Positions 40,313 to 40,500 of a stretch of DNA of 64,000 nucleotides are shown here, piece after piece. A model generated the notes under the pieces. It saw only the letters and a program-made list of their open reading frames with translations. It was not told where the DNA came from and made no database searches. This DNA is from Margaritispora aquatica. Taxonomy: Eukaryota; Ascomycota; Leotiomycetes; Helotiales; Discinellaceae. The stretch lies in NCBI GenBank assembly GCA_007644065.1, contig VJWN01000009.1:124001-188000 (forward strand), given 5' to 3'. Made by a program: the position numbers and the translations under genes. Within the stretch, counting starts at the first letter, position 1; each line of letters starts with the position of its first letter.

Positions 40313-40320
40313 AAAAAAAA
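40313..40320 (-). terminator. Pol III terminator of tRNA-Lys
   Basis: Eight A residues on the plus strand give a T8 run on the tRNA strand, 33 bases past the tRNA 3' end. It is the first T run long enough to stop Pol III. Confidence 0.7.
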
Positions 40321-40353: not shown

Positions 40354-40500
40354 AGCCCGAGGTGGGGCTCGAACTGAGATTCCTGTTAGTATTGATTTGA
40401 TGCGACGTCATGAGAATGTGAGCTTACCCCACGACCTTGAGGTGCCTTTAGAACTGCTGTTCTTAAGAGCCACACGCTCTACCGATTGAGCTACCCGGGC
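40354..40500 (-). tRNA. tRNA-Lys(CUU) with two introns, one in the T arm
   Basis: The minus strand gives a complete tRNA of 73 nt after removal of 20 and 54 nt. The acceptor stem is GCCCGGG with CTCGGGC (seven pairs, one wobble) and discriminator T. The D arm is GCTC-AATCGGTA-GAGC and the A box TAGCTCAATCGG. The anticodon stem TGTGG pairs with CCTCA with one T-T mismatch, and the loop CTCTTA..A has anticodon CTT. The first intron, 20 nt at 37/38 (standard site), contains an AGAAC-AGCA-GTTCT hairpin. The variable loop is AGGTC and the T stem GTGGG with CCCAC. The T loop TTCGAGC is separated from the T stem by a 54-nt insertion (40374-40427). The last G of this insertion keeps the B box GTTCGAGCC intact for Pol III. 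A T8 terminator follows. It could also be a non-functional copy, though every other element is well preserved. Confidence 0.85.
40374..40427 (-). other. 54-nt GT-AG intron-like insertion in the T arm of tRNA-Lys
   Basis: On the tRNA strand the insertion begins GTAAGC, carries the box TACTAAC 11 bases before its end, and finishes CTCAG. Its length is the same as the mRNA introns around it (46-61 nt). Exact removal joins G53 to T54 and restores GTGGG-TTCGAGC-CCCAC. These are all the marks of a spliceosomal intron. tRNA introns normally lie at 37/38 and are cut by the tRNA endonuclease. Confidence 0.7.

Follow-up and report, generated by a model that had tools for sequence, protein, structure and literature searches.

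In a 64,000-nucleotide (nt) stretch of the genome of the ascomycete Margaritispora aquatica (contig VJWN01000009.1, positions 124,001 to 188,000; hereafter the window), we found a gene for the lysine transfer RNA (tRNA) with anticodon CUU, tRNA-Lys(CUU), whose T arm is interrupted between bases 53 and 54 by a 54-nt insert bearing the signals of a spliceosomal intron. Inserts with such signals recur at this junction in seven tRNA genes of the genome: two for tRNA-Lys(CUU), and all five that we found for tRNA-Arg(ACG). Judging by sequence, these inserts are very probably removed by the spliceosome from transcripts of RNA polymerase III (Pol III), giving working tRNAs. They would also probably make up a further class of nuclear tRNA intron, in which the spliceosome completes the T arm of Pol III precursor tRNAs (pre-tRNAs) and without which no tRNA-Arg(ICG) would be made.

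Nuclear tRNA introns are taught as endonuclease introns. They have been described as lying only between bases 37 and 38 (the 37/38 site; PMC3978253). Introns of the messenger RNA (mRNA) type in Pol III RNAs are known from the U6 small nuclear RNA, where they are usually explained by reverse splicing inside the spliceosome (PMC10484740). If our reading is true, Pol III tRNA transcripts can serve as substrates of the spliceosome, and it becomes testable whether splicing can be uncoupled from RNA polymerase II (Pol II), the cap and the poly(A) tail.

Seven tRNA genes interrupted at one junction

The genome that we searched comprises 42.4 Mb in 49 contigs. The Lys and Arg gene sets were found through exon similarity, with the joined exons as the query, and the splice signals were therefore not selected for. 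Six tRNA-Lys(CUU) genes were found, four of which match in one piece; the other two, the window copy and a copy on contig 24, match in two parts that divide at base 53. Five tRNA-Arg(ACG) genes were found, on contigs 47, 46, 9, 1 and 14, and every one of them is split at base 53. The inserts thus share one junction in seven genes, on seven contigs and in two isoacceptors. The stronger case is tRNA-Arg(ACG), for which all five genes found are interrupted and no uninterrupted one was found. The observation made earlier on the window gene alone is right, and it is larger than first noted.

The inserts measure 54, 57, 55, 61 and 54 nt in the Arg genes and 54 nt in both Lys genes. All seven begin with GTAAG (GTAAGY in each) and end in YAG, as do U2-type introns, whose donors stay close to GTRAGT, and in all seven a branch-like box (CTAAC in five, CTGAT in one, CTAAA in one) ends 10-11 nt before the 3' end. 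Under a composition-matched model, the chance of the signal set is 5e-7 to 4e-6 for each insert. The Lys insert on contig 24 differs in sequence from that in the window and carries GTAAGT, TTCTAAC and TTTCAG. The five Arg inserts begin with the identical eight bases GTAAGCTT, two past the donor consensus; the sequence after them tends to be rich in pyrimidines.

For comparison with mRNA introns, we kept 22 of 29 candidates in the window by reading-frame continuity; these candidates are unverified and probably include false ones. Their median branch-to-end distance is 11 nt and their median length 74 nt, so that the likeness to nearby mRNA introns claimed earlier for the window insert was a fair one. 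GTAAG occurs in 7/7 tRNA inserts and 7/22 mRNA candidates, and C at position +6 in 6/7 and 4/22, respectively, which hints, as far as unverified comparators allow, that the tRNA introns are stricter in their signals.

The window gene, read directly from the sequence, occupies 40500..40354 on the minus strand and is laid out as follows.

40464..40500, minus strand: exon part with tRNA bases 1-37 (acceptor 5' strand, D arm, 5' half of the anticodon arm), from the sequence and the Rfam tRNA match
40482..40493, minus strand: A box region, tRNA bases 8-19, TAGCTCAATCGG, from the printed sequence, with the A box position 8-19 taken from PMC3978253
40444..40463, minus strand: 20-nt insert at 37/38, the usual nuclear tRNA intron site, from the sequence
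40428..40443, minus strand: exon part with bases 38-53 (3' half of the anticodon arm, variable loop, T stem 5' strand), from the sequence
40374..40427, minus strand: 54-nt T-arm intron between bases 53 and 54, from the sequence, signal analysis and structural scan
40422..40427, minus strand: 5' splice site GTAAGC, from the sequence
40385..40391, minus strand: branch box TACTAAC, ending 11 nt before the insert's 3' end, from the sequence
40374..40376, minus strand: 3' splice site CAG, from the sequence
40365..40375, minus strand: B box as present in the DNA, AGTTCGAGCCC, to which the intron supplies the initial AG, from the printed sequence
40354..40373, minus strand: tRNA exon 2 with bases 54-73 (T loop, T stem 3' strand, acceptor 3' strand, discriminator T), from the sequence
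40313..40320, minus strand: T8 run, likely the Pol III terminator, from the sequence

The sequence-only reading had held that exact removal of 54 nt with GT and AG ends restores the T arm, that the insert carries a GTAAGC donor, TACTAAC 11 nt before its 3' end and a CAG acceptor, and that the rest of the tRNA is intact, with a 37/38 intron and a T8 run. All of this was borne out. The insert (40427-40374) lies exactly at 53/54 with both stem strands intact, and all three signals can be read in it. The T stem (GTGGG/CCCAC), the T loop (TTCGAGC) and the acceptor stem (GCCCGGG/CTCGGGC; 7/7 pairs, one wobble) are likewise intact, and the 37/38 insert (40463-40444) and the T8 run (40320-40313) are in place. 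The ends of the insert have one G in common, which allows two registers with an identical product, only one of which has GT-AG ends; with both registers allowed, donor, branch and acceptor occur together in a composition-matched random insert with p ~4e-6. The only Rfam match within this stretch is tRNA (40354-40500, minus strand; 33.4 bits, cut-off 29), and it puts the surplus bases into the anticodon loop and the T arm. All six Lys(CUU) genes carry 37/38 inserts, which differ in sequence, and all share an identical T-T mismatch in the anticodon stem.

With the insert omitted, each of the seven genes forms a cloverleaf with 5/5 T-stem pairs and 7/7 acceptor pairs, 1-2 of them wobbles. ARAGORN calls all seven genes in this form and one of seven unspliced; the window gene is not called unspliced and is called as tRNA-Lys(ctt) with the insert omitted. 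In a sliding-deletion control, ARAGORN also calls deletions a few bases off, and it is hence unspecific for the exact junction. Programs that look for tRNAs with an undivided T arm are prone to overlook genes of this kind, so that more of them may lie unnoticed in the genomes of other fungi.

Exons and inserts differ in how far they are kept. The joined exons of the five Arg genes are 97-100% identical and their 100-nt flanks 14-46%. The interiors of the Arg inserts (the insert minus 8 nt at its start and 14 at its end) are 17-51% identical, compared with 29-38% for shuffles, and those of the two Lys inserts 38%, compared with 36% when shuffled. Most of the 21 pairs of interiors align no better than shuffles do, and comparison of all of them does not demonstrate a common sequence origin: two pairs lie at least 2 standard deviations above shuffles (contigs 46/1, 51% vs 35%; contigs 24/46, 54% vs 27%), and one pair (contigs 9/14) is 2 standard deviations less alike than shuffles. 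Two histories fit these sequences: either the tRNA bodies and splice signals were kept while most of the remaining sequence drifted past recognition, or the inserts arose separately. The likeness of the Arg exons could also come from gene conversion.

Pattern searches and a structural scan were aimed at the T-arm junction alone among tRNA positions. A branch-based pattern, in which a T loop follows a branch box and an acceptor, gave 14 matches, five of them tRNA genes (two Lys, three Arg) and nine not. A donor pattern with GTAAG and a gap of 28-58 gave 19, of which 7 are the seven interrupted tRNA genes and 12 are not. The same donor with a gap of 59-89 gave 11: four known Arg genes, four that are not tRNAs and three that end in AAG (two of these left out). 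With GTATG there were 22 matches, with no tRNA among the 6 ending in YAG (16 others left out), and with GTGAG 23, with no tRNA among the 8 ending in YAG (15 others left out). The reversed patterns, used as controls, gave 32 matches for the branch pattern, 34 for GTAAG 28-58, 42 for GTAAG 59-89, 25 for GTATG and 14 for GTGAG. The counts alone therefore show no enrichment over the controls (14 vs 32; 19 vs 34), and the case rests on the tRNA structure surrounding the seven matches. A scan for that structure, a GT..YAG insert between a pairing T stem and acceptor stem, over both strands of 278 kb of genome DNA returned the seven genes and nothing else. As a pattern for a tRNA census, GGTTCRANYCC was of no use, with 301 matches vs 331 in the control. 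An Rfam tRNA search of the genome, with 62 of 1722 candidates scored, gave at least 61 matches, and the window gene is not among these.

Proposed transcription and processing

In all seven genes the A box is kept and the B box is kept from base 53 on; the insert's AG stands in for G52 and G53, and the B box reads AGTTCGANNCC in place of the initial GG. Runs of T5-T9 lie 9-34 nt downstream of all seven genes. None of the seven inserts contains a T5 run, and one contains a T4 run. We reasoned that such genes would be transcribed by Pol III.

Alternatively, the spliceosome could remove the insert from a Pol II transcript that runs through the tRNA gene. The usual clients of the spliceosome are Pol II transcripts, and the intron both lengthens the distance between the A and B boxes to 97-123 nt and puts A for G52 of the B box (7/7 genes). 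Yet the boxes are otherwise kept, the T runs follow every gene and the inserts are free of T5, and the U6 RNA of fission yeast is a Pol III RNA that has an mRNA-type intron (PMC10484740). We consider a Pol II origin of the spliced transcript very unlikely.

In the pathway that we propose, Pol III would initiate by way of the A box and of a B box that opens with the intron's AG, and would stop at the T run, yielding a precursor that carries the insert or inserts. The spliceosome would be the enzyme, with GTAAGY, the CTAAC-type branch box and YAG as its recognition signals, and it would join base 53 to base 54, at which point the T arm would be complete. In the two interrupted Lys(CUU) genes, the tRNA endonuclease would separately remove the 37/38 intron. 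The finished tRNAs would then be used in translation. The evidence gathered supports, as far as splicing can be judged from the DNA, what had been proposed for the window gene, a Pol III pre-tRNA with a spliceosomal T-arm intron and an endonuclease 37/38 intron. If this is true, the Pol III B box begins at the 3' splice site, which then has two functions. An intron at 53/54 may be tolerated because, whatever its sequence, an AG end there restores the greater part of the B box.

The expectation that the T stem would be unable to form before splicing did not hold. Single-strand folding of the precursors predicts the T stem in three of the seven at 0.72 or more and in the other four at 0.30 or less, so that processing of the ends would not in every case have to follow splicing.

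Decoding of CGU and CGC, and rival accounts

CGU and CGC are read by inosine 34 of tRNA-Arg(ACG). Both codons are in use: four open reading frames (ORFs) in the window contain 29 CGT and 30 CGC among 3256 codons. The similarity search of the genome with joined exons found no uninterrupted tRNA-Arg(ACG). A pattern with an ACG anticodon loop and an intact T loop at tRNA distance gave 17 matches, none of which is a tRNA (16 judged by ARAGORN, one by eye). The analogous pattern for tRNA-Arg(GCG) gave 24 matches, none called by ARAGORN; under the same settings, ARAGORN called 5/5 real tRNA genes cut to similar length. That CGU and CGC are used while no uninterrupted Arg(ACG) or Arg(GCG) gene was found argues against pseudogenes and for precise removal of the inserts. 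Going by these searches, the cell must remove the Arg inserts, unless the searches or the assembly missed an uninterrupted gene. If the spliceosome is what removes them, the decoding of CGU and CGC in this fungus would hang on its activity; tRNA-Arg(ICG) is an essential isoacceptor.

These results bear directly on the account in which the interrupted genes are tRNA pseudogenes whose insert is never removed, with normal copies doing the work. The sequence-only reading had held that a lack of spliced reads and several normal tRNA-Lys(CUU) genes elsewhere, together with free divergence of this copy in relatives, would mark a pseudogene. Half of this stood, in that four of the six Lys(CUU) genes have no T-arm insert. 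The interrupted copy, however, is not decaying: its body outside the 37/38 intron is the same as in the uninterrupted Lys(CUU) genes, and a second Lys copy holds an insert of different sequence at this junction. The account also has to face the Arg(ACG) genes, 5/5 of which were found interrupted with no uninterrupted one found, and the intact bodies and kept splice signals of all seven genes although most interiors have drifted. That the interrupted genes are pseudogenes therefore appears highly improbable.

The T-arm insert could instead be cut by the tRNA splicing endonuclease, as is supposed for non-canonical tRNA introns of Cyanidioschyzon merolae, and T-arm introns outside 37/38 do exist in nucleomorphs and in C. 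merolae (PMC4090602; PMC3978253). Here, the T-arm insert lies at 53/54 in 7/7 genes, and it is the separate Lys insert that sits at the 37/38 position of endonuclease introns. The central helix of a bulge-helix-bulge motif reaches at most 2/4 pairs across the seven genes in both registers, which is like random positions (one simple geometry was used). Moreover, GTAAG, a branch box and YAG would be superfluous for such introns, yet they are present in all seven (with CTAAC in five). We regard removal by the endonuclease as extremely unlikely. The catalytic core of group I and group II introns takes some hundreds of bases, and a self-splicing intron was rejected, as the inserts measure only 54-61 nt and Rfam shows only tRNA in the window stretch. 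With seven loci on seven contigs, a local misassembly is unlikely.

Several points nonetheless weigh against spliceosomal removal from Pol III transcripts. To the enlarged box distance, the altered G52, the T4 run, the two pairs of interiors that exceed shuffles and the lack of enrichment in the pattern counts must be added that the branch boxes of two of the seven inserts depart from CTAAC, one of which (CTAAA, on contig 14) lies outside the fungal CTRAY consensus as well. Because four Lys(CUU) genes have no T-arm insert, the interrupted Lys copies could be dispensable. Both searches would miss a tRNA-Arg(ACG) that has a 37/38 intron and a widely divergent sequence, and an uninterrupted gene could hide in assembly gaps or masked stretches. 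Finally, the Arg(ACG) gene on contig 14 may be a decaying copy or a variant.

With regard to that last gene (minus strand, 360486-360364), we observed two exon differences, in the D loop and in the T loop, together with its off-consensus CTAAA.

Genomic context and comparison with known systems

The ORF adjoining the window gene (44611-40907) has AAA and Rad17 P-loop matches and is a relative of Elg1/ATAD5. Its nearest named proteins come from fungi such as Rhexocercosporidium, Acephala, Cadophora, Lachnellula, Mollisia and Chlorociboria, of which Mollisia and Chlorociboria belong to the Leotiomycetes, Helotiales; the best match is 49% identical among named proteins and 58% overall. Exact-match scans of viral contigs and prokaryote genomes gave 0 matches, as expected for fungal DNA. 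Elsewhere in the genome, contig 38 (42,582 bases) holds a dense run of tRNA genes, and several of its tRNA matches repeat about 33.70 kb apart. It is likely the mitochondrial genome, and it probably runs round a circle of about 33.70 kb and overlaps itself. A T-loop-like stretch on contig 10 (128209-128179, minus strand; GCAGGTTCGAATCTCGC) has a tRNA-like surround, is not called by ARAGORN and is possibly a tRNA relic.

Canonical 37/38 introns of nuclear tRNAs, which are cut by the tRNA endonuclease, are also present in the Lys(CUU) genes, so that two intron kinds occur in one gene; they differ from the T-arm inserts in position, length and signals. The tRNA introns of nucleomorphs and C. merolae likewise use T-arm sites, with more than one intron per tRNA gene (PMC4090602, PMC3978253). 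However, those of the Guillardia nucleomorph are 3-24 nt long with a splicing mechanism given as unknown (PMC4090602), whereas the inserts here are 54-61 nt long and have spliceosomal signals. Those of C. merolae rely on bulge-helix-bulge motifs (PMC4090602), and no such motif was seen here with the one geometry used. There, the T-arm introns are described without a spliceosomal mechanism (PMC4090602, PMC3978253), and no word beginning "spliceosom" occurs in PMC4090602 or PMC4033280. Among the matches listed from a partial body of open literature, none reports spliceosomal introns in nuclear tRNA genes, though such a report may exist.

The closest parallels lie among other small structured RNAs. 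The U6 genes of fission yeast and other fungi likewise have a GT-AG intron within a small structured Pol III RNA (PMC10484740, PMC5832005). U6 differs in that it is a component of the spliceosome, with an intron near its catalytic bases that is thought to stem from reverse splicing (PMC10484740), whereas a tRNA is without such contact. Two U6 genes found in this genome (C48:1672708-1672815 and C23:2147951-2148056, with 47 of 2801 candidates scored) match the family over its full length and have no intron. Fungal U3 small nucleolar RNA is made by Pol II. Its introns, common in Pezizomycotina including Leotiomycetes, are likewise GT-AG with an RCTRAC branch (PMC5832005). U3 and U6 were named, in 2017, as the sole small structured RNAs for which interruption by introns was known to be common (PMC5832005). 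Some fungal U3 paralogues have no intron (PMC5832005), which, in another RNA, resembles the tRNA genes described here.
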